A DNA stretch of 22,803 bases from Spirogloea muscicola (taxonomy: Eukaryota > Streptophyta > Zygnematophyceae > Spirogloeales > Spirogloeaceae). The translations under genes and the position numbers were made by a program. The notes below the pieces were generated by a model. The model did not search any database. It was not told the origin of the DNA and saw only the letters and a list, made by a program, of their open reading frames with translations. Within the stretch, counting starts at the first letter, position 1. Every line of letters begins with the position of its first letter. Shown one piece after another: positions 4,668-15,282 of this stretch. Location: contig WELB01000029.1 of NCBI GenBank assembly GCA_009602725.1, positions 779,892 to 802,694 on the forward strand, written 5' to 3'.

Positions 4668-7600
4668 TCATTCGTCGCCCTCGCCGTTGGCATCAGCTTG
4701 GCGGTGGACGCCTTGAGCTCGATACAGCTCAGCCACCTGGAACATCCAGGCACAGATTATCACCTCACACAGGACAAGCTCCTCCAAACACCCAATCTTT
4801 TGAAGGTCTTGAAGAACATGGGGTCTTATGGCTGTGGCTATGACGAGGGCTTGCTGTCTTTGAGTCTACCTGCTCTGCTGATGTCGCTTGCTCTGGCTGC
4901 TTATCTTCCCGCACCCGCAGGAACCTCGGAAACCTCAGCGCGATGCCCTGTGGTGCAGTGTTTGAAGAGCCAATTGAGTGAAATTGTGTCGCTCACCACA
5001 CTGCCACTCATTCTAGGCCACACAGAGACAGGAGCGCATCACATTCAGGACTTTGCACTCCTGTCCACTACCCACAAGACAGTCAGTGCCCTGTGGTGCG
5101 ATGTATGAAGAGGACATTTTGTAGCACGCATGCGGTTACCTTCACAGGGTCCACAGCACCGCAGGCGGCCTTGTGCATGGGGCTGATGGACAGGTCTGCG
5201 GCCTTCACTTCCCACACTTGGCTTGGCAAGAACCAAACATCCACGGGCAACGTCTCGCCGTACCGGTAGTAGGGCTGAGAAGGACAAGGCCAGTAAGTAA
5301 GACCAGCAAGCCTTCTTCATCATTGCATCTAGGAATGAGGCACTTGGGCTTGAGTCTAGGGGTTACATTACAGGGTGCGAGACTCATCATTAGGCTTTGA
5401 AGCGCAGGTCAGGCTACGCAGCAGCCTGGCATGCAGCATAAGCTGTCATGCTCTCACAAGCCGCTGCACATTCCAAAGAATCGAGAATGGGCCTTGCATA
5501 GCTGCATGTGCAACTGAGTCGAAGTAACAAGAGCATCTTTGATCTCCTCACCGGAGGCCTGGGTATGACGTGTTGTTTCAACGAGGCAGACAGCTCCTCC
5601 AAGATGGCCTCCGAGAAGCCGGTTCCTGCACAGCAACAACGTAGCTATTGGCGACAACATCCTCACCCTTTCTCGTAAGCCAGCTTTTGTGCAGCTAGCA
5701 CGCTTGCTGATCAAGGGGTGCTCCATACTGGGTCATGGATGTCATATGCGAAGTCGGTCAATTTCTTCTGCAGGTTATGGGCTGACCAAGACGCAGCGAA
5801 ATCTATCGTCGGACCGAGATGACAGCCTCAAGGACTTTAGATGGTGCTCCGCATCTACGCAGGATGGTGTAGTCATGCGCTTCTTGCAATTTCAGATCAG
5901 AGACTCTTGTTATAGCTAGAGCTACGAGCATTGACTACATGTGCGTCAAAGCAGGATTGAGCCCAGTGACTTTTATATTTGTGCAATACCGATCTTAGTG
6001 ATGCTCTGGTACTCCTCCGAGGTGTCATCATAGCAGGCCAAAAGAAAAGCCCCGAAAACTCCTGCACGTGCCAGAGTTGGGATGTGCTGCATCAGATGGC
6101 TAGTTTATAGTTGTTGACTTGCCAAGACGGATACTCTCACCCACTCCGACATCCGTCCATAGAGGGCACAAGCTGATTGAGAATGTCGCAGAACCCTTAT
6201 TTGAAGCTAACTTGGAGATGCTGAGACTCATAATATCAGCTTGGCGAGCAGCAAGGCATGACCAAGGCGTAGTCTCTCGCATGCTTCCTCAGAGGCAGAG
6301 TACCAGACAGACCTGCCCGCTTGCCCCGGCCATGGAAGGCGCCGATGACCACCAGGTCCAGGGAATCGCCCAAGCTGTGTCAAAGAGATGTGCAAAGGTG
6401 GAGCACATTGCTTCTAGATAAACACGTGAGAGGAATGGCACAGGAACGACGACTGAGACGGCACATTAACCACATTTGACGGAGTCACAGATGCGTCCAG
6501 AGGGTAGAGCGAGTGAAATGGGGGAGTTGAAGGTGCGTGCTCACTTGTCCATGTAGTCCTTCTTGAGCTTGAGCCAATTGTTGGACCGCTTGGCGGGCTC
6601 GTACGTGGCATCATGCTCCAACGTCTTCACCATCAGACCCTCGCAACTGCGAGTCAAGCGAGGCACGCGGTGCCCACACTAAGCATACGCACTCTTGCAG
6701 CAAAGCTCCAGATGCAACCTGCCTTTGCATCACGACTAAGGCTTCTTGGCACATCCCTTGAGACCCGGGACGAAGGCCCTTGCAGTAATCACCTCTGCTT
6801 CACAGCTTCATTGAGGAAGGACTGAATCTCCTCTACATCGCTGGCGGTAATTGCTGTGGCGAATTGGAACTCGCCTTCGACCTCTTGGAAGGACTCATAC
6901 AAGGCCTGCGAGCTCATACCATTATCATGTGCCAATCAAGGAGCCACAACACACGGCTGAGAGTATTCAGTCAGGCCAGCCACCAATCAAGTGACTATCA
7001 CGTCGCGACAGAGGCAACCTTCGAGATGATGAAAATCAGAGCAGCATGACAGGGGTGGGTACCTGACACTGTGCAGGTCATCACCTTGCGGCGGTCGGTC
7101 AGCTGCTCGTGCAGTAGCTCGCGGCCATTGATGTAGAGCAAGTCGAACGCGAAGATGCACACCTGCACCTTGATGTCGCCGACTATGACGCCCTTCTTGG
7201 CACGCGTGCTCAGGACCTGACAAGGGCGAGACCCATGTGCATGCTCAGATGCCATGGAGCAGCTAGTGTGATCCACTGGGAAACAGGAGAGCACCATGTG
7301 TAAGGGCGTCAAAGTTGATCAATGACTTCGAGAGTGCCACCTTGTGGCTTTCAGATGCTGCAAGGAGGTGACTGGTCAATGAGTGCTTGTTTGGCTGCGC
7401 AACCTGGAATGGAAGGATGCGCTTCTGCTCGCGGTCGTACGCCACCGCCTCGCAGTCCAGCACGAAGGATGTGATGCCCTCTTTCTTGTACCTGCCATGG
7501 CCACGGCGTCAAGTCGCAAGATTGACAAAGCAGCGCTTGTAAGGTATACCTGCTTACGGAAATTAATACCATCAGTGAAAGTTGATGTACCAAGTCATAC

Positions 7601-10600
7601 TCCGAGCTGCCTTTCAGGAGTGCAGACACATGGGGAAAGGGAGAGCCTGGCAACACTTCCTGAGACTCAAACAAATTTTTGACTCGCTGCAGCCAGCTTG
7701 GGCCGCAACAGGATGCTGCCAAGCCCATGCATGTGCAGCGACCTCTTCATGGTGGCGACAATGTCTGGGTACTTCTGGGTGTTGCGCTCCGCGTTGCGGC
7801 TGTAGATCTCGACGCTGCCGTCCTCCAGGCAGTGTATCTGTGGAGCCCGGGCGCAGGGGATGGGGGTCAATCAGTGGCCCTCGATGAGGGTACCATGACC
7901 ACCGACCCTAGCGCTGCATAATCTAGCAGCATTCTGCAGACCTTAAGGTCATCATTGAAGTGATAAAGTGGGTGGTCAATCAGTGTGCATGTTGATTGGC
8001 ACAATCGCGTAGATGACTCACCTGCGCGCGCTCGCCATCGTACTTGTACTCGCACGTGAAGACGGAGTTCTGGAACTTGTCAAGGACCTCGGAGATGCCG
8101 CGTGTGGGCTTGGCCAGCATCGGCCCGACGGGCGTGCCCGGTGTAAAGCGGCAGCGCTCGGGCAGCGCACGAATGCCGCCGGGCTCCAGCAGCGCCGGCA
8201 CGACAATGTCATAGTTGGGCAGCACCGAGAACACCTGCTTCATGATTCGCACGGCCTGCCACATTGAAAACATGAATGCAGCGAGATTGTCAGGTCCGTG
8301 TCAGGCAGCTTGGCCAAGGCGCCAGAGCGATGCCGAGCTCATTAACACACTTTGTCTGAACGTTCTGGCAAGATCCTAGGGAAGTGGTTGCAATGTATAT
8401 AGTGACTCCTGTGAGGGGCTTTATTCCTTAGATTGATTCAATGAGCTCGGCAGCTGGGTTTGCACTGATCACCTCCTCCAGGCGTGCAGGAAGATCGGCT
8501 GTGGAAGGCGGAGGGCGCTCGGCGAGCACAGCCGCCTGCGCGAGCGCCGCAAGCACCGTCTGCTCAGCAAGCCCAATGCGCATCTTGCCCTGCAGCAGGC
8601 GCACGATGAAGAGCGGCTCCACGTCGCGCGCCGCCACAATGAGCTGCTTCATCCGCGCTCGCTTCTTGTCCACGCTCTCTTTCCCAGCCTCCTGCACCGC
8701 ACAACGATGACCGCCTGGTGGCCGGATTCAGTTTTTAGCAATACAATCTTAACAGTTTGGATTATGCCTCAGGGTCTATCTGGCAGGTGTGCATCGACAA
8801 GCGAGGATGCCAGCTCAATACCGCCCAAGCGGTATTCCCAGGCCGGCTGACCTTGGCTATGAAGCGGAATGCCTCGAGAACTTTGGCACAGGCCAGCGGC
8901 GGGGCCGGGAACATGGTGCGCTGCGTCGTGCGGCTAGCCCGTGCAACGAGCCCCAGGTCACCACATTCCTGACAACCTCCGTCCGCCGCCGCTGGCGTGT
9001 CAGCGTGATGTGGGGGCGCTCCCCGAGCCAACTGGTGAGTGGAGGCGGCGTTCATCAGCAGCGCTCACTCACCTTGTATTCGGCCTTGATCTGAGCCTCG
9101 CGGCGGCCGGTCGCATCAGCAAGCGCCTTGACGATGGTCGCGTCGCCGATCCCAAGCTCCACGCCCTCGTGCGACGGCGCCACCTTGTTGGCCGCGAGGT
9201 ACACCACTGCCAGAAGGTCTGACGGCGTCGTCGCCATGACGGCTAGGAACAACTTGCACATGATCTCGCCGATCGCCAGCCGGCCCGACTCCTTGGCCAC
9301 CTCTGCAAGCATGGCAGTCATGCAAGGCTCAGCCTGCTAACGCGCAAAGCACCGCATTGAGACCAAGAAAGACTGAAGTGGTTGTTAGGGTTTAGGGTGT
9401 AAAGTTCGGTTGGGGGGTTTGGGGTTAGGATTTTAGGGTTGGGGTTAGGTCAAAGTGTGCGGAGCTCACCCTCAAAGGCTCTGGCGAGGGCGAGGAATGG
9501 CACGGGCTCGCCCGGCTGCCAGGAGGCAGCAGCCATGGGATCAAAGCTGGTGAGGCGCGCGGCGGCCGCGGCAGCTCCGTCTGCACCGCCCTTGGCCTTG
9601 GCCTTGGCCTTGGCCTTGCCACCAGCGGCAGTGGCCAGCGCCCTGGCGCCCTCCATCAGCCGCGCCTCCGCCGCGTCCCCAGGAGCTGCCCCCGCAGCTT
9701 CGCTGTCGCTGCTGGCCGCGTCGCTGCCGTCGTGGTCCGCATCCTCGCTGCTCGCCGGGCCGCCCGCTGCGACTGCGCCGTCGGCAAGCGCCGTATCTGC
9801 TGCCGGTATCACCGCCTGATCTTCCTCCATTGCCGCCACAGAGGTTGGTTGCCCGTTGGTGCTCAAGCGCTGCAGCGACGGCCCCCGGCCTTGTCTGCTG
9901 CTGGCGGCGGCGGGGCCGTCGTCCTCGTTGTTGTCATCATACAGCACCTGGCGCCGCTTGCGGCGCAGCGGCCGCCGGGCATCTGCTCCCTCTGCAGATG
10001 TCCTTGGGGACGGCCCAGCCTCCGCGGCCACCGTCTCGCCGACCCGCCTGGCCGTCTCGCCTCCGGCCACTTCCTCCTTGGAGCCAGTCGCGACCTCTGA
10101 TGCTGGCGCGTTGACGTGCTTGCCAAGTACAAATGCGCAGGGCTTCTCCTGCGGCGTCGCTGCAGCCGGTGTCCTGGTGGCGGCTTCCACCTCGCCATGC
10201 CCCTCGGCAGCTGCCAGTTCACCGTCCATTGGCGCCTTGGCTGCACAATCAACATGGGTGCGCGGGTCACAGCTAGACACACAATGCCGGCTAACGCCCA
10301 GGTAAGGACTCCGCTAATGACTTTGCTAATTAATTCTCCTATACGGAAAAGGAATTGAAGCTCAGCCTTAGACGCAAATGCACTCGGCCGGGGCGGCAGA
10401 CTGTCACCTGGCGACTTGGGTTCACGGCGGACAAGCCGCCGGTGACGCTTCCGGGCGAGCAGGGGGTCGACAGCACTCGGCGCCTCGCTCAGGACGGCGC
10501 CTTCCGCGGCGTCGGCCTCGCTGCCCGGCGCAGCCGCAGGCGCAGCGGCGCCCACCGACGACGGAGCAGCTGCGGCGTTGCATCGCCAGGAGCAGCGCCT

Positions 10601-10910
10601 CCGTCAAAGTCCATCAAAGGGCCAACGTGCGGATTGAACAAGGGTCTCATGAAAAGAATTGATTAGAATCTAAGACTTCCAGCCGAGAGGGCTTGCCTGC
10701 CGGAGAGTCGTGCGCGGCCGCCGCCGGGGCTTCACCGGCCACGTTGGCTTCGCTGCCGCCGCCTTGCGCCTTGGCGGCGGCTGCCGCCGCCGCCGCCGCC
10801 GCCGCCGTGGTGACTGGCGCAGCTGCCGGGCGGTGGTTCTGGAAGAAGGCCCCGATGGACGTCTGCCGCGACGGCGGCGCCGGCCCTGGCGCCGCTGCCG
10901 CCGGCCTCAT
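4668..10910 (-). CDS. LIG1: ATP-dependent DNA ligase I
   Basis: Joins Okazaki fragments and seals repair nicks in the nucleus. The 18-exon model gives about 988 residues and every junction keeps phase. Exons: 10910-10697, 10569-10408, 10240-9470, 9302-9073, 8968-8852, 8691-8473, 8255-8022, 7837-7743, 7491-7404, 7216-7085, 6905-6793, 6646-6545, 6374-6313, 6061-5990, 5625-5552, 5274-5140, 4947-4870, 4736-4668. Residues 16-23 are QTSIGAFF, a canonical PCNA-binding PIP box. A polyalanine run and basic clusters follow ([17 protein letters not shown]; likely nuclear localisation). The DNA-binding domain starts near [18 protein letters not shown]. The adenylation motif [11 protein letters not shown] puts the AMP-accepting lysine at about residue 642. 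Further nucleotidyltransferase motifs are [10 protein letters not shown] and WLKLKKDY, and the OB fold ends with [13 protein letters not shown] and [15 protein letters not shown]. Intron 1 is modelled as GC-AG and is the only uncertain junction. The ATG lies 11 bases from adapter sequence, so the upstream region is not genuine context. Confidence 0.96.
9303..9469 (-). repeat. Interstitial telomere-like repeats in a ligase intron
   Basis: The intron between ligase exons 3 and 4 carries degenerate TTTAGGG/TTAGGG/TTGGGG-type units on the + strand, concentrated at about 9385-9450. TTTAGGG is the usual telomere unit of plants and many green algae. The units are diverged and lie inside a functional-looking intron, so this is an interstitial array, not a chromosome end. 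Confidence 0.75.
9590..9619 (-). repeat. 6-bp tandem repeat encoding Lys-Ala dipeptides
   Basis: Five near-perfect CCTTGG units on the + strand encode alternating lysine and alanine on the minus strand within ligase exon 3. They lie in the variable linker before the DNA-binding domain, where length changes should be tolerated. Confidence 0.8.
10782..10807 (-). repeat. GCC triplet run encoding polyalanine in ligase exon 1
   Basis: A run of GCC triplets just after the PIP box encodes about a dozen consecutive alanines in the disordered ligase N-terminus. Confidence 0.7.
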
Positions 10911-10920
10911 CGCCGCCGCC

Positions 10921-10935
10921 AGATCGGAAGAGCAN
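10921..10935. other. Illumina adapter remnant and single N: artificial sequence join
   Basis: AGATCGGAAGAGCA at 10921-10934 is an exact match to the start of the standard Illumina TruSeq adapter. It is followed at 10935 by the only ambiguous base in the window. On one side is the start of the ligase gene. On the other a LOV-domain exon stops in mid-domain. The adapter must have been left untrimmed at a read or contig end and then joined to unrelated sequence. The two flanks should not be assumed to be neighbours in the genome. Confidence 0.93.
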
Positions 10936-11728
10936 GCAGGGCCGCTCCTCCCTGGCAGCCAACAAGCAGTCAAATGCTGTTGTCAACCTGGATGAACTTT
11001 CTCCTGGAACAGATTAAGCTGGATGGAGACAAGTGCAGCTTGCATAGTGCAGGAGGTAATAGTCGAAGTCATGCCAACGGGTGACCAGCAGTTATCAACC
11101 TGATGGCATCTCTAATCTCCAGTACTGTCCTCCTGTCTGTGTCGGGCCCCTGAAGAAAGCGGCAGTTCCTGCCGATGACCTCGTCTGCCGAGTAGCCGGT
11201 CATCATGCAGAAGCCCTCACTCGCGAACACGATGGGATGGTCCGTTAGGCGAGGGTCACTGCCAGAGACAGGGAGGAGCACTTGAGCTTGGCAGTTCCCG
11301 GCTGCCTGACGCAATTGCACGCAGTCTGACAAGTTAGCTGCTGCCGGACACGGCGCAGCAGTTGCAGGCTGAGGGCGACAAGAAGGTACTAGAATGCTCT
11401 CGCGAGCACAACTGCTGGTTGCACTGGCCGCAACTACTTCTTCTTAACAACGGCCGTATGCAAGGACGCCAGTAACTAGGTGCTCTTGTGGGCCAATCGC
11501 CAGCTTACGACGAGCACGACCCACACCTTCCAGCAGTCTTGACACTGGCACAGACCTGATGACGAAGTTGTACTGGTGGCGCGTGACAGCGTCAGCGACG
11601 AGGACGTCGTAAGGAACGCCCAGGCTGTTGTGCGTGCCGTTCCGAGGGGACACCGGTTTGCCAATGGCCGCCGCCGCCGCCGAGCCGCCGCCAGTCCTGG
11701 AGCTGCCCGACGCCGCGCTCACCGCCAT
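10936..11728 (-). CDS. LOV-domain blue-light photoreceptor, 5' part only
   Basis: Exons 11728-11556, 11258-11100 and 10951-10936 join in phase to encode about 116 residues. Reading through the junctions gives HQYNFVISDPRLTDHPIVFA, then SEGFCMMTGYSADEV, then GRNCRFLQGPDTDRRTVLEI, then RDAIREERPC. This is the first two-thirds of a LOV (PAS-family) domain. GRNCRFLQG holds the cysteine that forms the light-driven adduct with FMN, and the neighbouring R, FLQ and N residues are typical flavin contacts. The reading frame ends at the N and adapter at 10935, so the rest of the LOV domain and any output domain (kinase, F-box, bZIP, histidine kinase) are unknown. It is therefore not possible to say which LOV class this is. 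The proposed ATG (11728) lies antisense to the first visible homoserine dehydrogenase exon, so the true start is uncertain. Confidence 0.88.
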
Positions 11729-14194
11729 CGCCGACCTCAAGCGCTCGGGCAGGCCCCTGGCGGACCTCGATGCCGGTGCGCGCCGGGCCGTCCACCGCTG
11801 CCGCCGAGCTCTGGCTGGGCGAGCGCCGCGATTTCCGGCGGGCCGTCCGGCGCAGCTCTCGCTTGCCGGTCCTCCGGCCACTCACCTCCAGCATGGGAGC
11901 TGCCGGCGCCAGGGATTGGCGGCGTGCGGCTGCAGCACTTGGGGGCCGGCGGTGCCGCCTTGGACGACGTCCTCGCGGCCGTGCAGGCCGCCACCCCAGG
12001 TGACGCCGGCGGGCCTCCGAAGCAGGGTTCAGGTTAGGGTTTAGGTTGAAAGCCTAAACCCTAGATCCCAAATCCTTAAACTCCTGAACCTGAACCCTAA
12101 GTCCTGAACTCTAGGCCTAAATGTAAGCCCTAAATCTTAACCCTAATGTAAACACTAAAGCCTATGATATAGGAACTTAGGTCGTAAGTATCAAATGGTG
12201 TAGAATATAATGCCGGTCGCTGCCTTGAGACGCAGCCGTGCTTGAGCGGTCGTGCAGCAGCGCCTGCTCTCTGCCAGGCTGCAGCGGTCGGGGCGCCGGG
12301 CCTGGCTCCGGCTTTGTACAGGCCGGCGGCATGTCTCTCCACTACCACCTGAACCGCTTAACCCTTAAGTCCAAACCCTAAAACCCTCTCCTGATGGCGG
12401 CTGGCGTGTGGTGGCAGGCCTTGTGGTGGTGGACTGCACGGCGAGCGACGCAGTGGGCCAGCTCTGGGCCGCCGCTGCCGCGCGCGGCGCCTGCCTCGTG
12501 CTTGCCAACAAGAAGCCCCTCACTGCCGTGCTGGTTCGCCGCTGCCCCTCCTCAGCACCGACTGCGAGCAGCCCGCCGTGCCGCTCCCAGTCATTGCTGA
12601 CGGCTTGCACGCATTGTTTACAACAGGCCGTGTACGACGGCATCACTGCAGCGGGCCGCCGCTTGCGCTGCGAGTCCACGGTGAGCTCCAGCCCCTGCAA
12701 TTTACTTCTTGAGTGTGTCTTAGGATTCAGATCGTAACCCCAAGCCAGCGACGGCGCGCTGACGCTGGCCCGCCGCCATGGCAGGTGGGTGCGGGCCTGC
12801 CCATCATGGCCGCGCTGGCGCGGCTGGTCGCCGCCGGCGACCCCGTGTGCAGGATCGCCGGCCTGCTCAGTGGTGCGGGCGCGCTTCCCTGGTCGGAGCT
12901 TGCCCCTCGGCACAGGTGGCGCTATCGGCGAGCTCATGGCGGTGCCGCTTCCTCTGTGCTGCCAGGCACGCTCGGGTACGTCATGAGCGAGGTGCAGGGC
13001 GGGCGGCGCATCAGCGACGTCGTGCGGGCCGCCAGGGCGCTCGGCTTCACCGAGCCCGACCCCCGCGACGACCTCAGTGGCATGGACGTTGCCCGCAAGG
13101 TTGACATCGAAGGACATCCCCAGTCACTCCTATGAATCCTGCACCATAGTGGATCCTGCATCCTGTTGTGTGGATACCCAGGAAAGAGTGACGCGCTGAC
13201 TGGCGCTGCGCTGCAGGCGCTGATCATGGCGCGCCACCTCGGCTGGCGCATCAGCCTGGAGGACGTTGAGGTCGGTCAGCCCTCCATTCGCCCAGAGGAC
13301 GCTCGCTGACCACAGTGTGAGACTTAAGTGGCACAAATTGAGCCCTGAAGCAGAACCCTATATCTTTACATTCACGTTACATGTGCAGAATGCTCCAGGC
13401 GGTATTAAATTCTGCTGAATGCACCAGCCTCAAATGCGAAGGCCTGACCTGGTTCATGGACGGCGCACTGCGTGGCAGGTGGAGAGCCTGTATGACAGCA
13501 GCATGGACCCAGCTCGAATGCCCCTGGACCGCTTCATGGAGGACGGCCTGAGCACCTTGGACGAGAGCTTTGCACGCCGTGCAGAGGCGGCGCAGACCCG
13601 GGGCTGCGTCCTCAGATACCTGGCGAGCATCGAGGGCGGCAGGTGCAATCACGGCCACCAGCGCAAATTGAGTGTGCAAGCTCTGCCACAATCCGTCACA
13701 TACAAATGGCAGACGCATCTGAGCTTGCCATTGCAGCAGGCGGCCACTTCATGACAAGACCTAGCTTGGATGCGGCTGTTGGCCAGGTGCTGCGTAGGCG
13801 TAATGGAGGTCCTTGTGTCCAGCCCCCTAGGGCTGCTGCGCGGCAGCGACAACTTGGTGCGCAGCCCGCCCCCTCTTTGCCAACATTGCGCCTCTGTGCA
13901 CCACCTCTGACCACTACCTGCGCCACCAAAATTGGAGGCAGATGTCTGCCTCCATGCATGCTTCAAGAGTGTTGTGTTAGCTGCTCCACTTGTAATTATT
14001 TGTAATACACGTGCAACTGGGTGCTGTGCTCTAACAGGCAGGCACTTCTTTTCCTTTGTCAGGTGGAGATTTGGTCGAGCTGCTACCAAACGACGCCACT
14101 GGTCATCCAGGGTGCCGGTGCCGGCGACAAAACCACAGCTGCTGGCGTGCTCGCTGACATCCTCGATCTCCAAGACCTCTTTGCGGTGCGCTGA
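11664..14194 (+). CDS. Homoserine dehydrogenase, monofunctional, N-terminus missing
   Basis: Reduces aspartate 4-semialdehyde to homoserine with NAD(P)H, on the route to threonine, methionine and isoleucine. Exons: 11664-11775, 11913-11999, 12418-12527, 12627-12680, 12785-12872, 12966-13099, 13217-13270, 13479-13642, 13787-13856, 14063-14194. All phases agree and give 334 residues. Signatures in order: VVVDCTASDAV, LANKKPLT (conserved lysine), LRCESTVGAGLPIM, GTLGYVMSEV, FTEPDPRDDLSGMDVARK (catalytic Asp/Lys block), VESLYDSSMDP, SPLGLLRGSDNL and PLVIQGAGAGDKTTAAGVLAD. The order and spacing match the plant and yeast monofunctional type; there is no aspartate kinase domain. The protein begins near LPDAALTAIADLKRSGRPL, so roughly 50 N-terminal residues with the GxGxxG dinucleotide-binding loop are absent. 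The ATG at 11664 may only be internal; an acceptor-like AG at 11693-11694 would suit a missing upstream exon. I found no GxGxxG exon on this strand back to 10936. Confidence 0.93.
12001..12417 (+). repeat. Degenerate telomere-like repeats in a homoserine dehydrogenase intron
   Basis: The third visible intron contains TTAGGGTTTAGG (from 12034) that switches to CCTAAACCCTAG, followed by diverged CCCTAA units to about 12170. Another short block, CCAAACCCTAAAACCC, stands near 12372-12387. GGGTTTAGG (12037-12045) and CCTAAACCC (12053-12061) form a perfect 9-bp inverted repeat with a 7-nt loop, so the telomeric units meet head to head. The intron borders fit the flanking coding phase exactly. Confidence 0.8.
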
Positions 14195-15282
14195 GATTCA
14201 TTTCCTGGCAGCCAACGAGCTGCTTCCTCTTCCCTATCAGGGTCTTTGGTAGAGGCTCTTACCCCGCAGTCAGCTGAGACACACCTACTAGAAATCAAGG
14301 CACTTGAGACAGGCGACAAAGCTCACTCCAAGATTCTGCTATGGCGAGCTATGGGCATCAGAGATCTCTGGCTATCTGCTTTGGCTGCTATGTTACCATC
14401 ATGAGCGCTGATCATATACCCGTGGGCCCACTGAAGCAGCATCGAAACCCAGTTGCTGCTTCACTAGAGCAACAAGTCGACCTCTCCAGGAGCCGCTCAT
14501 TGGAAACTTGATCTTAGAAGAGTATTCCTGAGGCCCCGCTGAGGGCAAAAGCGGCAGGAAGCGTTGCCGGGCTTGCAAGCATTGCAGCCCTGCGTTCACA
14601 TCTCTCTGCTGCAAAATCAGGAGCCCTCCACATGCTAGCACCTACCTTCCTTCTCCTCGTCAAAAGACTCAAGACTTGACCCTAGCAAGCTCGAACTGTG
14701 CTCCATATGGGTCTTCTTGGCATGCCATCTCTTTCGTCTGGACCACAACATGCATACTTCGACCCCAACTTCCAACCTCTTCACAGTGACCTGGAGATGT
14801 TGAGCCTAATGAAATAGAGTTGGGGTCTGGCTTTTGAAGTCAAAGGGTCAGTGCTCAGTGCTGTAATGCAGAGTCCCTAAACCTGGGCTTACAGATTGCT
14901 GCTTGCTCAGTTGAGCTTTGCCAGAGTGGTATCCCCCTGTGCCCACCTGCGTTGTCTGCCAGTGTGCAAGGTCGCAGCATACCTCGGCAGGTCCAATTTG
15001 GCAGGTGTGCTTGGTACCTAAGAACTGACTGCCCAGCCTGCAGTCTGCGGTTAACGAGGCTATAACCTTGAAGGATTTACCAGCCCCTGCTACTCAGTTC
15101 ATATTGAGAATGCGGAGGCCATACCAGCATTGGCGAATACATCCTGTACGGCACATGCCATTCCAGCAAGTCATTGAGCGAGACCACGTCCTAAAGTTTA
15201 TGGTCACCCGGCAGAACGATGTCTCTTAGCAGCAAGTAAGCCTCAGAGCTTGCAAAGCTGAGCCAGACCAAGAAGACAAAGA
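14195..15282. other. Convergent 3' intergenic region
   Basis: This is the gap between the homoserine dehydrogenase stop (+) and the PIN gene stop (-). No ORF here has recognisable content, and I see no tRNA-like or repeat structure. TGTAA, the usual chlorophyte polyadenylation signal, occurs on the + strand at 14862-14866 and on the - strand at 14889-14893. They suit the two converging transcripts, but a 5-mer is weak evidence. Confidence 0.5.

Follow-up and report, generated by a model that had tools for sequence, protein, structure and literature searches.

The window, i.e. the whole stretch of 22,803 nucleotides of Spirogloea muscicola DNA that was analysed (C29:779892-802694 in a 153-Mb genome), contains the 5' part of an ATP-dependent DNA ligase gene on the minus strand (7001-10909), and the 5' part of a homoserine dehydrogenase gene on the plus strand (11694-13132). 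The ligase is identified by profile matches to DNA_ligase_A_M in the frames 7001-7318 and 7983-8300, and to DNA_ligase_A_N in the frames 8431-8727 and 9058-9336; similar copies are present on C135 and C189. Its ATG is at 10907-10909 (minus strand). The 28 N-terminal residues that we translated include QTSIGAFF, which we take to resemble the PCNA-binding box of ligase I. Homoserine dehydrogenase is recognized by a match to positions 20-72 of the 173 of Homoserine_dh in the frame 12713-13132, and the preceding part (11694-12712) probably belongs to the same gene. Between the two 5' ends lie an adapter remnant, a single N, and a piece of a LOV-domain gene on the minus strand.

An adapter remnant and a lone N next to the ligase gene

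The 14 bases at 10921-10934 (plus strand), AGATCGGAAGAGCA, are those with which the Illumina TruSeq adapter begins, and appear to be a tail left by read-through at the right-hand end of the left contig. Directly after them comes an N at 10935 (no strand). The window has no other N, and this one is best read as the remnant of an assembly gap, with N runs being found here in the homologous copies. Inspection of the letters and a scan for N thus confirm what a sequence-only reading of this DNA had noticed, including the distance of only 11 bases between the ligase ATG and this adapter-marked edge. That reading had also held a chance match to be unlikely in 23 kb, with which the numbers agree. Under a first-order Markov model, 0.0002 occurrences of the adapter 14-mer are expected in 22.8 kb, counting both strands. 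The 13-base adapter core has one match without mismatch in the window, and two when two mismatches are allowed (versus 0.59 expected). The Markov estimate, like the Markov and composition estimates given below, was built from a 100-kb genome sample. On C135 (L042/L063), the homologous copy carries the same adapter tail after the same base as in the window, and poly-A and N come next.

The LOV piece is identical to a locus on another contig

The segment at 10936-11693 (minus strand), which starts with the base directly after the N, is part of a LOV-domain gene. An open frame at 11072-11443 (minus strand) encodes the first half of a LOV/PAS domain, corresponding to positions 9-54 of the 103 in the Pfam profile PAS_9, and this is all of the domain that the window contains. 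Of the exon that follows, ∼16 bases (10936-10951) are left before the N, with the splice site set by eye, in keeping with the earlier view that a LOV exon is cut in mid-domain. This exon is unbroken in two related loci, on C324 and C143, where PAS_9 positions 55-100 and 54-98, respectively, are matched in a further open frame, with scores (22.8 bits, E = 1.1e-4, and 21.3 bits, E = 3.4e-4) that are below the Pfam cut-off of 27 bits.

All 758 bases of the segment are identical to C324:101346-102103 (758/758, 100%, introns included), and there is 89% identity to C143:237955-238721. The C324 and C143 loci align with each other over ∼4.1 kb at 85.5% identity and stay collinear past both ends of the segment. 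The C143 stretch of this alignment contains no N, and the C324 stretch contains one, 309 bases beyond the segment. As judged from these alignments, the LOV-domain gene on C324 is the apparent home of the 758 bp, which we refer to below as the filler. Another PAS_9/LOV-like piece is present downstream on C324 (L065:1847-2152), in the same direction and with a score of 24.0 bits (cut-off 27), so that two LOV domains may be present in the home gene.

Homologous copies place homoserine dehydrogenase next to the ligase

All of the left flank of the N (9700-10920) matches C135, at 92% identity, and its first 1104 bases match C189, at 84%. The right flank (10936-12100) is composite, with bases 1-758 matching C324 (100%) and C143 (89%), bases 732-1076 matching C135 (91%), and bases 848-1080 matching C189 (89%). 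When longer stretches were compared, C135 was found to be collinear with the window over 7414-10934, adapter included and with a short break at 9384-9467, and again over 11667-14411 (where the stretch compared ends), with poly-A and 603 N between the two blocks. In C189, collinearity stops at 10803 and resumes at 11783, the two blocks being separated by 985 N. Both runs of N were measured in 7-kb stretches holding both run ends. Neither C135 nor C189 aligns to 10940-11659, and the alignments of C324 and C143 to the window around the filler are confined to 10936-11693. When the left flank was used to look for an unbroken version of the ligase-dehydrogenase intergenic region, only C29, C135, and C189 were returned, and all three are interrupted there. 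Because C135 and C189 both read N at the site of the filler, neither shows the true sequence, and such N runs may stand either for gaps or for sequence that was withheld. The ligase ATG in C135 is at the same distance from the gap edge, by identical letters, and its position in C189 is inside the N run.

The ligase and homoserine dehydrogenase genes are head-to-head in the three copies, with an N-bearing stretch between them. As predicted from this comparison of sequences, the true right-hand neighbour of the ligase gene is the homoserine dehydrogenase gene. The sequence-only reading had warned that gene order and any shared promoter could not safely be read across the join, which was sound, since the LOV piece is foreign and homoserine dehydrogenase is the real neighbour. 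A literature search found no paper that combines algae with a promoter shared by ligase and homoserine dehydrogenase genes. Regional copies that agree in order and are about 80-92% identical, as on C29, C135, and C189 and on C324 and C143, suggest that diverged haplotypes, or the parts of a polyploid or hybrid genome, were assembled into scaffolds of their own.

The filler ends in a GCC repeat

At its right end, the last 27 bases that the window has exactly in common with C324 (11667-11693, plus strand) are a GCC repeat, after which the two sequences diverge. This 27-mer has exact matches in the genome at C29 and C324 only, and a similar GCC repeat is found at the corresponding place in C135, which places the switch from one sequence to the other within 11667-11693. 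There is neither N nor adapter at this join. An ATG at 11664-11666 (plus strand), in frame with the right-hand open frame 11613-12041, consequently falls inside the filler and is probably no reliable start codon. As far as alignments can tell, there are two false joins, a marked one at 10935 and an unmarked one within the GCC repeat. The earlier claim of a chimeric join between the ligase and LOV genes thus holds for the marked join, by way of copies elsewhere in the genome; it had missed the second join, and the foreign part is only 758 bp long.

Adapter remnants are found at many other sites in the genome

We searched the whole genome for the 13-base adapter core and found 63 matches (45 on the plus and 18 on the minus strand), against 4.7 expected from base composition and 4.6 from the first-order Markov model. 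The reversed 13-mer, used as a control, had no match in the whole genome. Sequence context was inspected for all 63 sites, window included. At least 14 adapter bases are present at 58/63 sites and at least 16 at 43/63. By type, 34 of the 63 are read-1 and 24 are read-2 sites (both with at least 14 bases), and five are bare 13-mers. An N is found no more than 150 bases downstream at 56/63 sites (a single N at 27 and longer runs at 29), and at 20 sites it directly follows the adapter match. As background, 20 stretches of 5 kb (the 100-kb sample) contain two single Ns per 71,852 known bases; five of these stretches are all N and two more have longer N runs. Seven of the 63 sites have no nearby N (L005, L053, L057, L009, L010, L040, and L043). 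At L005 and L053, genomic sequence seems to match the adapter core by chance, L057 is at a contig end, and at L010, L040, L043, and perhaps L009 the adapter remnant continues into other, continuous sequence.

Eight pairs of similar sites have the adapter after an identical base (window/L042, L008/L018, L010/L043, L019/L023, L020/L047, L026/L049, L034/L058, and L036/L052), one of which, L020/L047, has in addition a common departure from the adapter sequence. These pairs suggest that the same adapter reads were reused at several sites. At L003, L004, L006, L011, L012, and others, the adapter tail passes into poly-A or poly-T, as viewed over its first 60 bases, and then into N, which looks like read-through beyond the adapter that was built into scaffolds.

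We also considered whether an adapter mark proves a chimera as a general rule, and rejected this. Two of the 62 other sites (L001 and L008) were compared with homologues on both sides. At L001 the order is that of C116, where 39 bases separate the matched flanks. At L008, the order is that of C2 and C36 with different spacing, the matched flanks being ∼2.7 kb apart in C2 and 4.4 kb apart in C36, and separated in L008 by 402 unmatched bases, the adapter, and N. Since both sites keep the order of their homologues, an adapter mark alone is no proof of a chimera, and on these comparisons it is the apparent edge of a gap that it marks. The counterpart of L008 (C14:317146) in C2 is C2:1549688-1552406, and the 402 unmatched bases include a dispersed repeat with dozens of occurrences among the matches listed. 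At L002, where one side was searched, matches were mostly to a dispersed repeat.

Discussion

These findings point, with a probability that we put at about 95%, to a short-read assembly artefact in which a gap beside the ligase gene was mis-filled with a piece of a LOV gene. The gap would lie between the divergent 5' ends of the ligase (minus strand) and homoserine dehydrogenase (plus strand) genes, as in the three copies found. The left contig would have been lengthened during gap-filling with an adapter-bearing read, of which AGATCGGAAGAGCA remains. The right contig would have been lengthened leftwards through the GCC repeat, where it would have switched to reads of the LOV gene whose home is on C324, and this path would have run on for 731 bases past the repeat until only a single N remained of the estimated gap. 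It was probably a gap-filler rather than a scaffolder that placed the filler, and the GCC repeat probably caused the switch to LOV reads; we infer both the filling program and the order of these steps. Several observations count against an artefact. The Ns in C135 and C189 hide the true sequence and the right join bears no mark. Elsewhere, some adapter remnants sit in continuous sequence, and L001 and L008 are non-chimeric by the same comparison. Finally, the second half of the LOV domain scores below the Pfam cut-off in C324 and C143.

The right join, lacking N and adapter, would also suit a real event of very recent date, in which DNA of the C324 locus was duplicated into one copy of the ligase-dehydrogenase intergenic region and only the left end of the insert is unsequenced. 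A common 27-bp GCC repeat is likewise what a repair-type insertion could leave, and because C135 and C189 read N at the site, the LOV piece is not shown to be absent there. However, such a duplication would have to begin exactly at an adapter-marked N and to coincide exactly with the site of the N runs in both homologous copies. It would also have to be 100% identical to C324, introns included, and its length is about what N runs of 603 and 985 call for in a gap. We therefore regard it as very unlikely that a LOV fragment was recently copied into the 5' region of ligase and dehydrogenase in one of three copies, and equally so that a new ATG was thereby placed upstream of the dehydrogenase frame.

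Two other explanations concern the marked join itself. An adapter and an N at the join would be expected if the whole contig had been wrongly scaffolded there, with all the DNA to the right of 10935 belonging elsewhere, which also fits the wording of the sequence-only reading. From about 11667-11694, however, the window again matches the ligase-bearing stretches of C135 and C189 in the same order, so that only 758 bp are foreign, and a scaffolding error of this scale, which would have to be repeated identically in all three copies, is extremely unlikely. Least credible, to the point of being negligible, is that 14 genomic bases match the adapter by chance and happen to lie next to an ambiguous base of unrelated origin. 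Two of the 63 sites (L005 and L053) do resemble ordinary genomic sequence, but only 0.0002 matches are expected in the window, the N directly follows the adapter, and the same tail is found after the same base on C135.

If the gap was mis-filled with a foreign LOV piece, as we propose, the pairing of ligase and photoreceptor carries no biology. The false pair of ligase and LOV photoreceptor genes, and the false truncated LOV gene, could be removed from the annotation of the genome and replaced by a ligase gene and a homoserine dehydrogenase gene arranged head-to-head. A simple screen for errors of this kind would look for the adapter 13-mer beside N, followed by a self-search of the filler. 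Among the papers searched, none was to the point on adapter contamination combined with misassembly; there are precedents for each of the two elements.

In the available part of one study, adapter is described at contig ends, in forward orientation at the ends and as reverse complement at the beginnings (PMC11536531, BMC Genomics 2024). The adapter remnants found there, as here, adjoin portions of the forward- or reverse-specific adapter. That study, in the same part, deals with microbial genome databases, whereas ours is a 153-Mb genome with introns in which, unlike in the cases described there, the tails are mostly inside scaffolds at N, and often followed by poly-A or poly-T. Wrong gap fills are known as well, and long-read gap closers have been benchmarked (PMC8848313, GigaScience 2022). 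The likeness to the present case, going by the portion of that report available, is that gaps are closed with untrue sequence; the difference is that it covers long-read tools, whereas the filling in S. muscicola was probably done with short reads.
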